Shown here: one piece after another, positions 12,881 to 24,460 of the stretch
Layout: each line of letters opens with the position of its first letter
How positions within the stretch are numbered: the stretch's first letter is position 1
Assembly (NCBI GenBank): GCA_008501635.1
Contig: QQUJ01000006.1
Coordinates: forward strand, 1 to 64,000
From: Pseudomonadota bacterium
GTDB lineage: Bacteria > Pseudomonadota > Gammaproteobacteria > QQUJ01
DNA length: 64,000 nt
Direction of reading: 5' to 3'
The notes under the pieces: model-generated
What the model saw: the letters and a program-made list of their open reading frames with translations, nothing else
Database searches by the model: none
Told to the model about the DNA's origin: nothing
Position numbers and translations under genes: made by a program

Positions 12881-13363
12881 TTACGGGCGGACAACGAAGC
12901 GCTCGCAGAAGGCGACGGCCCGCTCTCCGGCGCTTTGAATCGGCTCCGGCACATGGGGCAGCGAGTACTCCAAGCCATCCAGCAGGTTCTTCACCATCAG
13001 GCCCACCTCGGTATCACCCTCCATGCGCAGGCGCCGCTGAAAGAAAAGCGTGTCCGCATCTTCACGGCGGGTGGCCAGGAGCAGGAAATCGTAGAGCGTA
13101 CCCGAGATCGAGGCTGCGACGGGTTGCTGGCGATCAACAGCCACCAAACGTCCCCTGCTCTTGGTGAGCCGGTACTCGATTCCCGCATCCTCGATCGCGA
13201 TGCGCAGTACCCGATCCTGCAGAAAATCGAGTTCACCATCGCGCACCAACAGCGCGAACAGCCGGCTCAGCGCCACACCGAGCGCGGTGGAATGGACGAT
13301 ATTGGGAACCAGGCGCAGCGGTGCAGTTAACAGCCGCGGCAGGGAAGGAGTGCTTTGGCGCAT
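12881..13363 (-). CDS. ubiT: SCP2-domain accessory protein UbiT
   Basis: Lipid-binding SCP2 protein (160 aa), the anaerobic counterpart of UbiJ that brings ubiquinone precursors to the UbiU/UbiV hydroxylases. The N-terminal helical segment (residues 1-45) has LPRLLTAPLRLVPNIV. The SCP2 fold follows with GELDFLQDRVLRI and, near the end, FQRRLRMEGDTEVGLMVKNLLDGLE. That last segment is characteristic of YhbT/UbiT proteins. It is transcribed from the rho side (rho stop is 28 bp upstream), opposite to ubiUV. Identification rests on the SCP2 signature plus neighbours. Confidence 0.88.
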   Translation of the reverse strand: MRQSTPSLPRLLTAPLRLVPNIVHSTALGVALSRLFALLVRDGELDFLQDRVLRIAIEDAGIEYRLTKSRGRLVAVDRQQPVAASISGTLYDFLLLATRREDADTLFFQRRLRMEGDTEVGLMVKNLLDGLEYSLPHVPEPIQSAGERAVAFCERFVVRP

Positions 13364-13391
13364 CTTCTCGGACTCCGGACGCTTACCGGGA

Positions 13392-14648
13392 CTAGCGCTT
13401 CATCGAATCGAAGAACTCGCTGTTGGTCTTGGTCCCCTTTAGCTTGTCGTGCAGGAACTCCATGGCCGCCAGCTCATCCATGGGGTGGAGCAACTTGCGC
13501 AGTATCCACATCTTCTGCAACTCATCGACGAGTGTCAGCAATTCCTCGCGACGCGTACCGGAACGATTGATATTGATGGCGGGGTAGATACGTTTCTCCG
13601 CAATGCGGCGATCCAAATGGATCTCCATGTTGCCGGTGCCTTTGAACTCCTCGTAGATCACATCGTCCATGCGCGAGCCGGTATCGATCAGGGCGGTGGC
13701 GATGATGGTCAGGCTGCCGCCCTCCTCTATGTTGCGCGCAGCGCCGAAGAAACGCTTGGGCTTCTGCAGGGCATTGGCATCGACGCCACCGGTCAGCACC
13801 TTACCCGACGAAGGAACCACGGTGTTGTAGGCGCGTGCCAGACGGGTGATGGAGTCGAGCAGGATCACCACGTCCTTCTTATGCTCCACCAGACGCTTGG
13901 CCTTTTCGATGACCATTTCCGCCACCTGCACATGGCGGCTGGCCGGTTCGTCGAAGGTGGAAGAGACCACCTCCCCACGTACCGAGCGTTCCATCTCGGT
14001 CACCTCTTCAGGGCGCTCGTCGATGAGCAGCACGATGAGATAGCACTCGGGATGCTTAACCTCGATGGAGTGCGCGATATTCTGCAATAGCATCGTCTTG
14101 CCGGCCTTGGGAGGCGAGACGATAAGGCCGCGTTGCCCCTTGCCAACGGGCGACATCAGATCGATGACGCGCGCCGTAATATCCTCGGTGCTGCCATTGC
14201 CCAATTCCAGCGACATACGCTTGTTGGGGTGCAGCGGTGTGAGATTCTCGAACAAGACCTTGTTCTTCGCCGTCTCGGGCGATTCGTAATTGATCTGGCC
14301 CACCTTGAGCAGGGCGAAGTAGCGTTCGCCCTCCTTGGGTGGACGGATCTTGCCCGAGACAGTATCTCCCGTGCGCAGATTGAAGCGCCGTATCTGACTG
14401 GGCGAGACATAGATGTCATCGGGGCCTGCCAGGTAGGAGCAATCCGCTGAACGCAGAAAACCGAAACCGTCCTGCAGGATTTCCAGCACCCCATCGCCAA
14501 AGATATCTTCGCCGTTCTTGGCGTGGGCCTTGAGGATGGAAAAGATCACATCCTGCTTGCGCGACCTTGCCATTCCTTCGACGCCCATATCCTGGGCAAT
14601 TTGTATGAGTTCTGAGGCGGTTTTTTTCTTGAGTTCGGTGAGATTCAT
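13392..14648 (-). CDS. rho: Transcription termination factor Rho
   Basis: Hexameric RNA helicase (418 aa) that terminates transcription. The N-terminal helical domain ([19 protein letters not shown]) is followed by the RNA-binding cold-shock-like domain with [29 protein letters not shown]. The P-loop is [12 protein letters not shown] at about residues 177-188. [10 protein letters not shown], the Q-loop and the R-loop region ([14 protein letters not shown]) follow. Full length and very conserved. It lies downstream of trxA in the same direction, as in E. coli, with a 184-bp leader between them. Confidence 0.99.
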
Positions 14649-14743
14649 GGCGCTGTGTCAGATGGGTTGAAACCGGAAACGGAGGAACATGCACAATGCC
14701 TGGCGAGTCCAGACACTATGGAAAATCAGGGGAGTTTTTTTGG

Positions 14744-14776
14744 GTATGGCTGCGGCCGCAACGACCGCAGCCATAC
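14744..14776 (-). other. Hairpin in the trxA-rho spacer
   Basis: Perfect 12-bp inverted repeat, GTATGGCTGCGG (14744-14755) and CCGCAGCCATAC (14765-14776), loop 9. It lies downstream of trxA and in the leader of rho. The T-run (14735-14741) is on the plus-strand side, so for minus-strand transcripts the hairpin is followed by A residues and is not a canonical terminator. A role in the rho leader (Rho autoregulates its mRNA in E. coli) is possible. Confidence 0.55.
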
Positions 14777-14832
14777 GCTATCACTTTGTTCAGCCAGGGT
14801 CTAGGTTTTGGTGTGCTCCGGCCGAAATAACC

Positions 14833-15159
14833 TTACAGATTGCTATCGATAAACGCGGTAAGCTGCGACTTCGACACGGCGCCCACCTTGGTCGCCTCCA
14901 CATTGCCATTTTTGAACAGCATCAGCGTTGGAATTCCGCGGATTCCATATTTCGGTGGTGTATTCGGATTCTCGTCGATATTCAGCTTGGCCACCTTGAC
15001 GCGCCCATCGTACTCGTCGGATATCTCATCGAGTATCGGTGCAATCATTTTGCACGGACCGCACCAGTCGGCCCAAAAATCGACGAGCACGGGGTTTTCG
15101 GAATTCAGTACGTCTGCTTCGAATGTTTCGTCGGTAACGTGTACCATGCGTTCGCTCAC
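14833..15159 (-). CDS. trxA: Thioredoxin 1
   Basis: Cytoplasmic dithiol reductase (108 aa) for ribonucleotide reductase, PAPS reductase and other proteins. The active site WCGPCK is at about residues 32-37, preceded by the buried LVDFWADW strand. The cis-proline region [14 protein letters not shown] is present at about 70-83. The start ATG gives [11 protein letters not shown]. It is divergent from rhlB and upstream of rho, the same arrangement as in E. coli. Confidence 0.98.
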
Positions 15160-15401
15160 CTTGATTGCCTCCAGTGGGCTCCTTACCGGACTTCAATAAT
15201 TGCGATCGGAGAAAGGAACTCGGGAAAGTTGCTGTCACGCGGTGCGTCTTTATTGTGGCTGCATGACTCGCGACACCGCTGACCGACATCCGTACCTCGA
15301 TGATGCCGGCCCAACCTAGCATCATTTCAGCCGAATCGTCCCCATATTGCAAGCCTAAAAAAGCCTCGCCCCTTGTTCCATATGGGGTATGCTTGCCCGC
15401 C

Positions 15402-16694
15402 ATGGATAACTCACATTTGTCGAAAACCACCTTTTCGGAGCTAAATCTGCCCCCTGAATTGCTGCGCGGCACAACCGAAGCAGGCTTTACTCTCTGCACG
15501 CCAATTCAGTCCGAAACCCTGCCCCTGGCCTTGTCAGGTAAGGATGTCGCCGGTCAGGCACAGACCGGTACCGGCAAGACCGCCGCCTTTCTGTTGGCCA
15601 CCATGACGCATCTGTTGCGCCGCGCCCCGCCCCCGGCTCGCAAGGCGACACAGCCCCGGGCGCTCATACTCGCGCCTACGCGCGAACTCGCGATTCAGAT
15701 TCACCGTGATGCCGAGAGCCTGGGCGCCTATACGGGGTTGACCCTGGGCCTTGTTTACGGGGGAACCGGTTACGAGGAACAGCGCAGAATGCTCCAAGCC
15801 GGCGTAGACATCCTGATCGGAACGCCCGGTCGACTGATCGACTACTTCAAACAGCACATCTTCGATCTGAAGGCCATCCAGGTGATGGTGCTCGACGAGG
15901 CCGATCGCATGTTCGATCTCGGCTTTATCAAGGATATTCGCTACCTGCTGCGGCGCATGCCATCACCGGATCAGCGCCAGGGCATGCTCTTCTCGGCGAC
16001 CCTTTCCTATCGCGTGACCGAACTCGCTTACGAGCACATGAACAACCCCGAGTTGGTGATGATCGAGCCCGACAAAGTGACGGCCGACAAGGTCAAACAG
16101 ACAGTCTATTACACCGCCAACGATGAAAAGATCGCACTGTTGATAGGGCTGCTCCAGCATATGGATCCGAGCCGCAGTATCGTTTTTGTCAACACCAAGC
16201 GAACGGCGGAGCGCGTCACTGACTACCTGGAGGCCAATCAAATCCACGCAGCGATGCTCTCCGGCGATGTGCCGCAGACAAAACGCCAACGACTGCTGCT
16301 GGCCTTCCAAAAGGGCGAACTGCCGATCCTGGTGGCTACCGATGTGGCCGCGCGGGGCCTACACATCCCGGACGTCAGCCACGTCTTTAATTTCGATCTG
16401 CCGCAGGATGCCGAGGACTACGTCCACCGCATCGGTCGTACCGCCCGTGCGGGCGCGCTGGGTGATGCCATCAGCTTTGCCTGCGAGGAGTATTCGTTCT
16501 CCCTGCCGGAGATCGAGGCCTACATCAGCCATAAGATCAGCGCTGAATCATTCGATCCATCCCTGCTTACGGATTTGGTCCACCCCAAACGGCGCCAATC
16601 GCGCGTGCGACCGGGAGGAGCGCGTCGTCGTCCGACGGGGCAGAACAAACGCCCGCAAAACACCTCACGTCATAAACCGAAGCCGAGAAATTGA
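15402..16694 (+). CDS. rhlB: ATP-dependent RNA helicase RhlB
   Basis: DEAD-box helicase (430 aa), a component of the RNA degradosome in enterobacteria. Motifs in order: Q motif [11 protein letters not shown]-loop [29 protein letters not shown] at [16 protein letters not shown], and [11 protein letters not shown] basic C-terminal tail of about 45 residues ([15 protein letters not shown]..) is typical for RhlB. The frame is open back to 15300, but [14 protein letters not shown] at 15402 is the family-like start. It is divergent from trxA, as in E. coli. Confidence 0.94.
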
Positions 16695-16816
16695 CCCTCC
16701 GCGTCACTTTGTGACCCCGGTCGCATCCCCCACTGTGACCGGATCATCCCTCCCCGCATTCAGGATCGGCACCACTCCCGCGCTTTCAGTGGACAGCAAC
16801 ACTCCCGACGGTTTTC

Positions 16817-16836
16817 TGTAAAGTCCTGTTATTACA
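16817..16836. promoter_or_regulatory. Inverted repeat, possible activator site
   Basis: TGTAA at 16817-16821 and TTACA at 16832-16836, separated by 10 bases. It is centred about 95 bp upstream of the predicted start of the sigma-54 type promoter at 16897. That is the usual distance of enhancer-binding-protein sites, so it is a candidate upstream activating sequence. The arms are short, and the match could be chance. Confidence 0.3.
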
Positions 16837-16896
16837 ACCTCTTAAGAAAGCGTTGCAAAACGCAGCCGACAAAAAGCGACCAACCGCGCACTGAGT

Positions 16897-16912
16897 TGGC
16901 ACGCATAGTGCT
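16897..16912 (+). promoter_or_regulatory. Sigma-54 (-24/-12) type promoter
   Basis: The sequence TGGCACGCATAGTGCT matches 14 of 16 positions of the RpoN consensus TGGCACG-RNNN-TTGCW, with the invariant GG and GC correctly spaced. The mismatches are C for R at position 8 and G for T at position 12. Transcription would start about 12 bases after the GC, near 16922, directly before the first stem of the c-di-GMP riboswitch at 16925. Confidence 0.7.
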
Positions 16913-16924
16913 TCAGCAATAACG

Positions 16925-17023
16925 AGTTTCGTTACAAAGGCAACCCGCCCGAAAGGGCTGGATCGCAAAGCTACCTGCCTTGAGGTCGCAAATGACCATG
17001 GTAGAGGGGCTGCAGGAGAAACT
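16925..17023 (+). promoter_or_regulatory. Cyclic-di-GMP-I (GEMM-I) riboswitch
   Basis: The conserved core of the GEMM-I class is readable in order. AAAGGCAACC at 16936-16945 is followed by a stem closed by a GAAA tetraloop (GCCC-GAAA-GGGC, 16947-16958). Next come GGATCGCAAAGC (16960-16971) and a second stem of CTACC (16971-16975) with GGTAG (17000-17004), which encloses GGTC..GACC. GCAACC (16940-16945) pairs with GGCTGC (17008-17013) apart from one mismatch. A further stem of AGTTTC (16925-16930) with GAAACT (17018-17023) runs into the AGGAG ribosome site (17014-17018) of the ORF starting at 17025. This suggests translational control. Which state is ON is not shown; closing of the basal stem would occlude the ribosome site. 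Confidence 0.85.
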
Positions 17024-17024
17024 G

Positions 17025-17234
17025 ATGAACAGAATCAGCCGAATCCGCTCCAGAATCGCACCGCGCCTCAGTCGGCCGGTCGAACTCCTGACGCCGCTCT
17101 TCTTACCAATGCTCACCAAGGAGAAGCGGCATGAAAGCAACAACCCGTTTCAACCGCTCTACGCAGAGGCGATCGCGCCGCGCCTACCGCATGCGCCGCA
17201 AGACGCGTATCGCTGGAAAAGGAGAGACACCTAG
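17025..17234 (+). CDS. Small orphan protein under c-di-GMP riboswitch
   Basis: ORF of 69 codons directly after the riboswitch. AGGAG at 17014-17018 is 6 bases before the ATG, a strong ribosome site embedded in the riboswitch basal stem. The product is basic, with an Arg-rich start (MNRISRIRSRIAPRLSR), a short hydrophobic stretch (VELLTPLFLPML) and a Pro-rich C-terminus. I recognise no family. It overlaps a second ORF (17131-17241) in another frame, so it may be the regulated protein, a leader peptide that couples translation to the second ORF, or both. A strong terminator follows at 17355, so no larger gene belongs to this transcript. Confidence 0.5.
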   Translation: MNRISRIRSRIAPRLSRPVELLTPLFLPMLTKEKRHESNNPFQPLYAEAIAPRLPHAPQDAYRWKRRDT

Positions 17235-17241
17235 CGGATAG
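17131..17241 (+). CDS. Very basic 36-residue peptide
   Basis: Short ORF in the +1 frame relative to the ORF at 17025, with its own good ribosome site (AAGGAG at 17119-17124, 6 bases before the ATG). The product begins MKATTRFNRSTQRRSRR and contains about 13 Arg/Lys in 36 residues, like a nucleic-acid-binding peptide. It is too short for reliable family assignment. Its start lies inside the 69-codon ORF, so translational coupling after riboswitch control is plausible. Which of the two ORFs is real cannot be decided from this sequence alone. Confidence 0.45.
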   Translation: MKATTRFNRSTQRRSRRAYRMRRKTRIAGKGETPSG

Positions 17242-17253
17242 GCTTCAGTTTAC

Positions 17254-17310
17254 GGAATCTGGTCGATTTCCTTCGCTTACTCTCGCTCCTCCTCGCTCCG
17301 ACCAGATTCC
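17254..17310 (+). other. Long hairpin in 3' region of riboswitch transcript
   Basis: Perfect 12-bp inverted repeat GGAATCTGGTCG (17254-17265) and CGACCAGATTCC (17299-17310). The 33-base loop is pyrimidine-rich and includes CTCCTCCT, complementary to Shine-Dalgarno sequences. A second, 7-bp palindrome (GGCCCAATTTGGGCC) follows at 17329-17343. It lies between the small ORFs and the terminator. Confidence 0.6.
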
Positions 17311-17354
17311 ACCAACCGGGGGTGCTGCGGCCCAATTTGGGCCCAGCCATTTCA

Positions 17355-17384
17355 CCCCACCCCTAACCGGGTGGGGTTTTTTTT
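17355..17384 (+). terminator. Intrinsic terminator of riboswitch unit
   Basis: Stem CCCCACCC (17355-17362) and GGGTGGGG (17369-17376) with a 6-base loop, followed directly by eight T residues (17377-17384). This is a canonical Rho-independent terminator for plus-strand transcription, closing the unit that begins at the promoter near 16897. Confidence 0.9.
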
Positions 17385-17393
17385 GCAGTGTGG

Positions 17394-17600
17394 TCAGCGC
17401 TCCACCTTGGTCAACACCTGCGTTTGATTGTCACCCGAGCGCAGGTAGACATAACGCTCCTGCATTTGCTCGAACTCCCTGTCGCGGCGCCGCTCGGAGG
17501 CAAACCAGCGAAAGTATTCCAGGTTCTCCAAAAGATGCGCTTTCGCCATAGCATCACCCTCTGGCAAAACAACCCGTATCCCAAATCGCTTATCAGTCAT
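17394..17600 (-). CDS. Small hypothetical protein
   Basis: ORF of 68 codons starting at ATG 17600 (MTDKRFGIRVVLPEGD). The composition is soluble and charged, with an amphipathic central part (HLLENLEYFRWFASERRRDREFEQM). No signal peptide or membrane helix is visible. It looks protein-like rather than a shadow, since nothing overlaps it on the other strand, but I do not recognise a family. Convergent with the riboswitch unit. Confidence 0.5.
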   Translation of the reverse strand: MTDKRFGIRVVLPEGDAMAKAHLLENLEYFRWFASERRRDREFEQMQERYVYLRSGDNQTQVLTKVER

Positions 17601-17884
17601 GCCAATTCCCGCCAGCTGTGGATTCGGTGGCGATTATAGCGGATGGCGGCGCTGGCTCAGACCGGTAACGCACGACTGGAATATCAACCGGGCATGCGGC
17701 GCGGGGTGGCCCGGTTCAATCGCCGAACCCCTTGCCATTTATCTGCAAAAAGTCCCCAGCCTGCCAATTCCTCCAACACTGATCGCGCGTCATTCGCTCT
17801 GCCGCAAGGATTGTGGGGTCACGCGCTCTGCCCGTGAACAGCGCGGCAAAGCGTTAATCGGATTGTTGGTGCTCGAAACCGATC

Positions 17885-20690: not shown

Positions 20691-21308
20691 TCATCCGCTT
20701 CCCTGCTTCAGCCGCTTGAGCTGAAACAGGGTATTGCGCTCTTCTTCCTCCAGCACCGACTCGATGTAACGCACCGTCGCGCGGTAGCGCGGGATGATGT
20801 TGTAACGCAGTGCGTTGACCCGCTTCTGGGTCTTGCGCTGCTCCTCCAGCAGCCGCCACAGCGCCGTCTCGGACTCGCCCAGGCGCGCCAGCACCACCGC
20901 GGCACGGGCCAGATCGAGGCGCGTCTGATCGAGGCTCGGATCGGTGCCGAGCAATCCGACCGGCTGCAACGGCTGCAGGCGCGCGGTAACGCTCGGATAT
21001 TCCACGCCCAGACTGCGCCGCGGCAGAATCTCCACTTCCAGCGCCGGCGCCAGACCGATGGCCACCTGGCCCAATGCCTGGCTGCTCATGCGCAGTGTGG
21101 AGATACCCAGCCAACGGTACGCCGCGGCCAGGAGCGTGCGCGCCTCGCCGCGCAGTTCGCGGTACTGGGCGAGACGCTCGTAGACCAGGCGGGTCAGCAG
21201 CTCTTTCTTGCGCTCCAGCAACTGATGGCCCTGTTCCAGAAAGGCGACCTGGCGCCGTACTGCCAGCAGCGCACTGCGCGTGGGCGGAATGTTCAGGCGT
21301 CGGCCCAT
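20691..21308 (-). CDS. V/A-type ATPase subunit D
   Basis: Central rotor shaft subunit (205 aa). The start MGRRLNIPPTRSALLAVRRQ and the long coiled-coil N- and C-terminal helices (e.g. EEQRKTQKRVNALRYNIIPRY at about 162-182) are diagnostic of V/A-ATPase subunit D. It is the last gene of the operon, and its start overlaps the subunit B stop by 16 bp. It couples ATP hydrolysis or synthesis in A3B3 to rotation of the membrane ring. Confidence 0.94.
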   Translation of the reverse strand: MGRRLNIPPTRSALLAVRRQVAFLEQGHQLLERKKELLTRLVYERLAQYRELRGEARTLLAAAYRWLGISTLRMSSQALGQVAIGLAPALEVEILPRRSLGVEYPSVTARLQPLQPVGLLGTDPSLDQTRLDLARAAVVLARLGESETALWRLLEEQRKTQKRVNALRYNIIPRYRATVRYIESVLEEEERNTLFQLKRLKQGSG

Positions 21309-22686
21309 TCCGTCTCCATCGGGTGGTGATAGCGCTCCAGCTCCGCTTCGGTGACGCGGGTCAGCTCGTCGGCCGGCAGCAGCGACAGTAGATCCCAGGC
21401 GAGATCCAGCGTCTCGACGATGCTGCGGTCGTCAGCCGCCCCCTGGTTGACGAACTGGCGCTCGAAGGCGTCGGCGAAACGCAGGTACTGACGGTCGCGC
21501 CGCGACAGCTCGTCGGCACCGATGATCGAGGCGAGGTTGCGCGCCTCGATCGCGCGTGCGTAGGAGGCGTAGAGCTGACTCGCCACCCGCGGGTGGTCGG
21601 AACGTGTCTCCTCCTTGCCGATGCCGTCCTTCATCAGCCGCGAGAGCGAGGGCAGCACCGTCACCGGCGGGTAGATGCCCTTGCTGTGCAGCTCACGGCT
21701 GAGCACGATCTGGCCCTCGGTGATGTAACCGGTGAGATCGGGAATCGGATGGGTGATGTCATCGCTCGGCATGGTCACCACCGGCACCATGGTGATGGAG
21801 CCGTGACGGTCGCGGATGCGCCCGGCACGCTCGTAGATCGCCGCCAGATCGGAGTAGAGATAACCGGGGTAGCCTTTGCGCGACGGCACATCGCCCTTAG
21901 CGGTGCTCACCTCGCGCAACGCCTCGGCGTAGTGGGTCATGTCGGTCATCACCACCAGTACGTGGCGGTCCTGGTCGAAGGCCAGGTACTCGGCGGCGGT
22001 GAGCGCGGTGCGCGGCAGGATCAACCGCTCCATGGGCGGATCGTCGGCGAGGTTGATGAACATCACCACGTTTCCCAGCACACCGCTGTTCTCGAACTCC
22101 TCCTGGAACAGCCGTGCATCCGCGTAGGAGACCCCCATGGCGGCGAAGACGATGGAGAAGTTGGCCTCCTCGCCGGGCAGCCGCGCCTGACGCACGATCT
22201 GCGCGGCGAGCCGGTTGTGGGGCAGCCCTGAGCCCGAGAAGATGGGCAGCTTCTGGCCGCGCACCAGCGAGTTCAACCCGTCGATGGTGGAGATGCCGGT
22301 CTGCATGAACTCGCGCGGATAGGCGCGCGCCGCCGGGTTGACCGGCGCGCCGTTGACATCGCGCCGTACCCGAGAGAGCAGCGGCGGCCGCCCGTCACGC
22401 GGCTCGCCGACACCGCTGAAGATACGGCCCAGCAATTCCAGCGACAACGGCAGCTCGAAGGGCCGATCCAGAAACCGCACCCAGGTGCTCTCCAGATCGA
22501 GATCGTCGGTGCCCTCGAAGAGCTGCACCGCCACCTGGTCGCGGCCGCTCAGGATCACCTGTCCGTTGCGCACGCCCCCGTCACGATCACGCACCGCGAC
22601 CCGATCGCCCAGCGCAACCCCCGGCACCGCCGCCATATAGAGCAGCGCACCATGGGCAGCACTTGCTGTGCGGTACTCCTTCTCCC

Positions 22687-22690
<4 letters not shown>
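21293..22690 (-). CDS. V/A-type ATPase subunit B
   Basis: Non-catalytic nucleotide-binding subunit (465 aa) of the A3B3 head. ATG 22690 has an AGGAGG ribosome site and overlaps the subunit A stop as ATGA, so it is preferred to the in-frame start at 22717. Motifs include FSGVGEPRDGRP, PREFMQTGISTIDGLNSLVRGQKLPIFSGSGLPHN at about 123-157 (no true P-loop, as expected for B), and YPGYLYSDLA. Typical length. Confidence 0.96.

Positions 22691-24460
<1,770 letters not shown>

Follow-up and report, generated by a model that had tools for sequence, protein, structure and literature searches.

Riboswitches without a recognisable target gene are rare, and the main c-di-GMP example that we found is merRNA of Bdellovibrio bacteriovorus, a 445-nt c-di-GMP-I transcript that contains no conserved ORF and is massively expressed in attack phase (PMC3627812). 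Its authors propose a role in c-di-GMP storage, still to be validated, and report no conservation outside Bdellovibrio (PMC3627812). Here, we describe a riboswitch locus within a 64 kb stretch of DNA (the window, by which we mean that whole stretch) for which merRNA is the nearest described system. The reading that we favour, tentatively and with less than even confidence, is that this locus produces a sigma-54 transcript of ~460 nt, the usual partner of which has been lost and the riboswitch of which now gates a start codon.

A preliminary description had placed a GEMM-I riboswitch at this locus, and an Infernal search against Rfam bore this out: the c-di-GMP-I (GEMM-I) family RF01051 matches on the plus strand with 58.1 bits (E 9e-9; gathering score 35) over the full model, in both sequence and secondary structure (Table 1). 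No other Rfam family exceeds its threshold anywhere in the 64 kb window. The match is also the single c-di-GMP-I element of the 3.93 Mb genome, in which 34 GGDEF matches were counted. The c-di-GMP-I-GGC variant RF03167 scores below its cut-off. The basal stem, AGTTTC with GAAACT, is present where that description had drawn it. Over ten relatives, 91% of P1 pairs are standard and both partners vary at three of the pairs, and none of 500 shuffles matched the observed pairing score or the observed covariation score. The inner P1 pair, G-C in nine others, is replaced in the window by a compensatory U-A. Because P1 covaries, including this replacement of G-C by U-A, the window aptamer looks to be under maintenance.

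Table 1 Features of the riboswitch locus, in window coordinates.
Feature	Position	Strand	Basis or remark
Inverted repeat TGTAA-N10-TTACA	16817-16836		5-base arms, near -97; alone not beyond chance
Sigma-54 (RpoN) promoter-like site TTGGCACGCATAGTGCT	16896-16912	+	12/14 informative positions, GG/GC spacing correct
P1 outer stem, 5' strand AGTTTC	16925-16930	+	Sequence, P1 covariation
c-di-GMP-I (GEMM-I) riboswitch aptamer	16929-17017	+	RF01051, 58.1 bits; RF03167, 52.2 bits, under cut-off 59
Shine-Dalgarno AGGAG of ORF1, P1 3' side	17014-17018	+	Placed alike in L017, L048, L051 and L056
P1 outer stem, 3' strand GAAACT	17018-17023	+	Sequence, P1 covariation
ORF1, 69 codons, orphan, putative	17025-17234	+	ATG 17025-17027
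CUCCUG, candidate competitor hiding the Shine-Dalgarno	17085-17090	+	Perfect complement of CAGGAG (17013-17018)
12-bp hairpin with one bulge, enclosing the ORF2 Shine-Dalgarno (AAGGAG)	17093-17130	+	Local z -3.4
ORF2, 36 codons, arginine-rich, putative	17131-17241	+	Overlaps ORF1 in another frame
Perfect 12-bp hairpin, 33-nt pyrimidine-rich loop with CUCCUCCUC	17254-17310	+	z -5.0
Intrinsic terminator, run of 8 T	17354-17384	+	9-bp stem at 17354-17377, then T run

With regard to the ligand, we equate a G and a C of the window aptamer with positions G20 and C92 of the Vc2 structure, and take position 17013 to be the ligand-contacting C92. Both putative equivalents are kept, so c-di-GMP rather than cGAMP is expected, and we infer that c-di-GMP is the ligand of this riboswitch. 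In P3, the window aptamer has U-A in place of the consensus G-C, a trait that it shares with the subtype described below. The idea of a subtype without the ligand-binding C92 was dismissed, since the altered base sits in P3. Three other aptamers, L048 (7144-7227), L008 and L016 (G053), read AAAAGC where the window has AAAGGC; the A in question occupies the position that we take for Vc2 G20, where this change marks cGAMP-binding GEMM-Ib riboswitches.

To place the aptamer among its relatives, the subtype pattern GCAAAGYYACCTRYC...TGGYAGNGGG was run over 84,980 named species genomes, where it recovered 13 loci. Nine of them lie upstream of a small, secreted multihaem cytochrome c of ~165-215 aa, in which a conserved HPVG segment accompanies three CXXCH motifs; one member weakly matches cytochrome c7-like Pfam models (E about 1e-4). 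The other four, in Rhodocyclaceae, lie upstream of signalling genes, which from their translations appear to be CheV-like and EAL/HDOD-like. In L017, L048, L051 and L056, the Shine-Dalgarno of the cytochrome gene (GGAG) is found at the P1 3' strand with the ATG within about ten bases, and the Shine-Dalgarno and ATG of the window are placed relative to P1 just as these cytochrome starts are. A profile search for the cytochrome in the window's own genome came back empty, whereas the control genomes G044 and G093 were strongly positive, and a profile of the nine cytochromes matched no remnant in the six frames of the window. The cytochrome partner was presumably lost from this genome rather than never present. 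No further copy of the unit was found in its own genome; its only DNA relatives are the G044 aptamer (72% identity) and two 30-base matches, and a comparison of 16990-17400 with proteins downstream of other GEMM-I loci returned chance-level matches only.

L048, with its AAAAGC aptamer, lies upstream of a cytochrome from the same family. In L052 and L054, a short ORF starting from a P1-associated Shine-Dalgarno and an apparent intrinsic terminator (called by script in L054, read by eye in L052) are located between riboswitch and cytochrome gene, which suggests leader-ORF or termination control within the subtype.

Upstream of the aptamer, a motif scan using the sigma-54 consensus YTGGCACGRNNNTTGCW (14 informative positions; GG-N10-GC) confirmed the RpoN site that had been proposed there. 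With this one included, the two strands of the 64 kb window contain three sites of this quality, so the probability that chance alone would place one at the right position, give or take about 20 nt, is roughly 5e-4. From its -12 C at 16911, the +1 is expected near 16922-16923, i.e. 2-3 nt upstream of P1, in line with the start near 16922, just before the first stem, that had been suggested. The genome encodes rpoN (PF00309, 55.5 bits), and no sigma-70-like site was called in 16600-17700. A sigma-54-dependent promoter placed exactly at the aptamer 5' end is plausible from these data, and the cell presumably makes use of it. Short inverted repeats are present upstream of it at -97 and -67, the former of which (TGTAA-N10-TTACA) is a possible activator site. 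At the other end, the terminator said to close the unit at 17384 is real, with its stem and T run, and the existence of a short terminated unit stands. The transcript probably extends from about 16922 to 17384 as a terminated unit of its own.

The ORFs fared less well. The basal stem had been described as enclosing the AGGAG of a 69-codon ORF: the last G of AGGAG is indeed in the outer stem, but its other bases lie between the outer stem and the ligand site. AGGAG, ATG and ORF1 are all there, yet the length of ORF1 is within chance, as a reading frame of 69 codons from the fixed ATG survives in 25% of dinucleotide-preserving shuffles (P=0.25). Its codon-usage score, -0.09 per codon, ranks at about the 5th percentile among real stretches of 69 codons and near the 75th percentile among off-frame ones, i.e. 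within the off-frame range; ORF2 scores lower still (-0.25). Searches of Pfam and NCBIfam gave no significant match for the small ORFs. For ORF1, neither the 84,980 named species genomes nor viral contigs contained a relative, and a search of 369 whole genomes from the class gave two weak matches at chance level (E 0.0011 and 0.009 per genome); the genomes covered came from orders and families other than the window's own. An AlphaFold model of ORF1 built from one sequence was uninformative (mean pLDDT 62). Thus, neither the coding signal expected of a small-protein gene nor conservation across these genomes was found, and the tiny proteins of the preliminary description are unsupported. What survives of its c-di-GMP-gated gene is the aptamer, the promoter, the placement of Shine-Dalgarno and ATG, and the terminator, with the ORFs staying putative.

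We next consider how such a unit could work. In the ensemble predicted without ligand from the single sequence, CAGGAG (17013-17018) pairs with CUCCUG (17085-17090) with a probability of 0.92-0.97. Because this pairing would take 17013, the putative C92 equivalent, away from the aptamer, the two folds are mutually exclusive. As the Shine-Dalgarno is partly enclosed in the P1 fold as well, the sequence is compatible with control in either direction. In the favoured reading, the sigma-54 promoter would give rise to a transcript starting at P1 and ending at the intrinsic terminator; binding of c-di-GMP would close P1, which would compete with CUCCUG (17085) for the Shine-Dalgarno, and this competition would set ORF1 translation, whether up or down. 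More speculatively, ribosomes on ORF1 may open the 17093-17130 hairpin and so free the ORF2 Shine-Dalgarno. Both ORF1 and ORF2 would then be translated. Promoter, aptamer, Shine-Dalgarno and start codon are all intact even though the cytochrome is absent, and the location of a Shine-Dalgarno and ATG behind the aptamer favours a translational switch. Against it stand the properties of the ORFs, with ORF1 being of chance length, weak in codon usage and devoid of credible relatives, and ORF2 being worse. Overall, we give gated translation of a putative small ORF a slight edge over an RNA-only role, with a functionless relic coming third.

An RNA-only role draws on the 3' part of the transcript. 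None of the shuffles folds as well as the 17254-17310 hairpin, the loop of which holds the single occurrence of CTCCTCCTC on the plus strand of the window. The order of elements, i.e. a hairpin with CUCCUCCUC in its loop, a second hairpin and a terminator with U8, resembles, as far as the predicted folds go, the working end of an sRNA. The locus might thus encode a stand-alone regulatory RNA of ~460 nt, with the ORFs occurring by chance: either a c-di-GMP sponge or a c-di-GMP-sensing sRNA, the 3' module of which would pair with Shine-Dalgarno regions. This is possible, if on balance unlikely. No ORF goes beyond chance, the predicted 3' hairpin is far more stable than its shuffled versions (z -5.0), the element is the only one of its type in the genome, and the size is near the 445 nt of merRNA, which is likewise specialised in its expression and lacks a conserved ORF (PMC3627812). 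However, an RNA-only unit has no need of a Shine-Dalgarno and ATG exactly at the translation start of its relatives, a sponge requires very high expression, and the Rfam sRNA matches of the 3' part are under cut-off and driven by the terminator. The specific form of this idea, a c-di-GMP-sensing sRNA made by sigma-54 that joins a 5' aptamer to a 3' hairpin module of anti-Shine-Dalgarno type (CUCCUCCUC), we hold to be decidedly improbable; were it true, c-di-GMP would tune a trans-acting sRNA instead of a downstream gene.

Known sRNA families were considered for the 3' part and rejected. The anti-hemB and toxic sRNA models gave the sub-cut-off scores just mentioned, and the anti-hemB model does so in 11 of 14 control genomes too. 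A second locus of the window's genome (G000:C26:14631-14732) reaches 43.9 bits with this model of a Burkholderia sRNA (cut-off 49.5), outscoring the window's 3' module. DUF1127/CCUCCUCCC sRNA units were considered as a parallel and set aside, with neither a family match nor a paper found.

It is improbable that the unit is a relic, in which promoter and riboswitch linger without function after loss of the cytochrome gene and the RNA ends at a fortuitous terminator. The absence of the subtype's usual cytochrome from the genome, downstream ORFs that are unlike genes, and the lack of any other copy or relative of the unit would all fit. Decay should however have broken some of its parts, and promoter, aptamer core, P1 (with its compensatory change), Shine-Dalgarno and terminator are all intact. 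Very improbable, finally, is that the unit forms the 3' UTR of the DEAD-box helicase gene directly upstream (15300-16694), made by read-through and ended by a terminator serving the helicase: no intrinsic terminator was called on the plus strand between the helicase stop and 17354, but a sigma-54 site sits at the aptamer 5' end, stop codon and terminator are 690 nt apart, and at the other c-di-GMP-I loci examined the riboswitch is followed on the same strand by a longer ORF, as a 5' leader would be.

The helicase gene is part of a region (12884-16694) encoding Rho, thioredoxin and the DEAD-box helicase in the rhlB-trxA-rho order of other Gammaproteobacteria. On the minus strand, 20694-22717 encodes V/A-type ATP synthase subunits D and B (Pfam ATP-synt_D and ATP-synt_VA_C); judging by its relatives, the genome that carries these genes would belong to the Gammaproteobacteria.

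How unusual the arrangement is was assessed on 114 collected c-di-GMP-I loci, nearly all gammaproteobacterial, of which five were too short downstream and 109 were judged. The window is the only one (1/109) where no ORF of at least 100 aa (or running off the end) starts within 500 nt, a coarse test that a chance ORF at another locus would pass; the orphan 69-codon ORF is what follows its aptamer. The arrangement had been called atypical for GEMM-I, and by this count it is. In the same collection, one gammaproteobacterial genome (G166; L029, L082-L089, L118) has 11 c-di-GMP-I matches, several of them >100 nt. Strong sigma-54 sites upstream of the aptamer are also found in L112, L009, L043 and L059. 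In L112 (G310), L009 (G081) and L043 (G334), they are located 26-46 nt before the aptamer, which in turn precedes related proteins of ~180 aa, that of L112 matching PagP (Pfam E 5e-13).

The locus combines the one c-di-GMP riboswitch of its genome, which has 34 GGDEF matches, with a putative sigma-54 promoter and a missing cytochrome, and would make a compact test case for riboswitch rewiring, the possible outcomes of which are a new small protein, an RNA-only role or decay.

Compared with RF01051 riboswitches in general, the one described here differs in having no gene of known kind downstream. With L112, L009 and L043, it shares a strong sigma-54 site before a GEMM-I aptamer; unlike the window, these have an aptamer of the standard kind with a gene for a PagP-like protein of ~180 aa downstream, and form a recurring sigma-54 and riboswitch unit for an apparent relative of the outer-membrane lipid A acyltransferase. 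Because it recurs in three other genomes before a PagP-like gene, the combination of sigma-54 and GEMM-I is not in itself new. The cytochrome-linked subtype (L017/L049, L048, L050-L052, L054, L056, L015/L057 and L059) has the aptamer sequence and P1 of the window and a Shine-Dalgarno within or adjoining the P1 3' strand, as in the window. It differs in that no sigma-54 site occupies the corresponding position at any of its loci and in that it precedes a small multihaem cytochrome c, a gene that the window's genome does not have. With merRNA, the locus has in common a c-di-GMP-I riboswitch in a transcript of ~450 nt without a conserved ORF; what sets it apart from merRNA is its sigma-54-like promoter and the Shine-Dalgarno and start codon that directly follow the aptamer.
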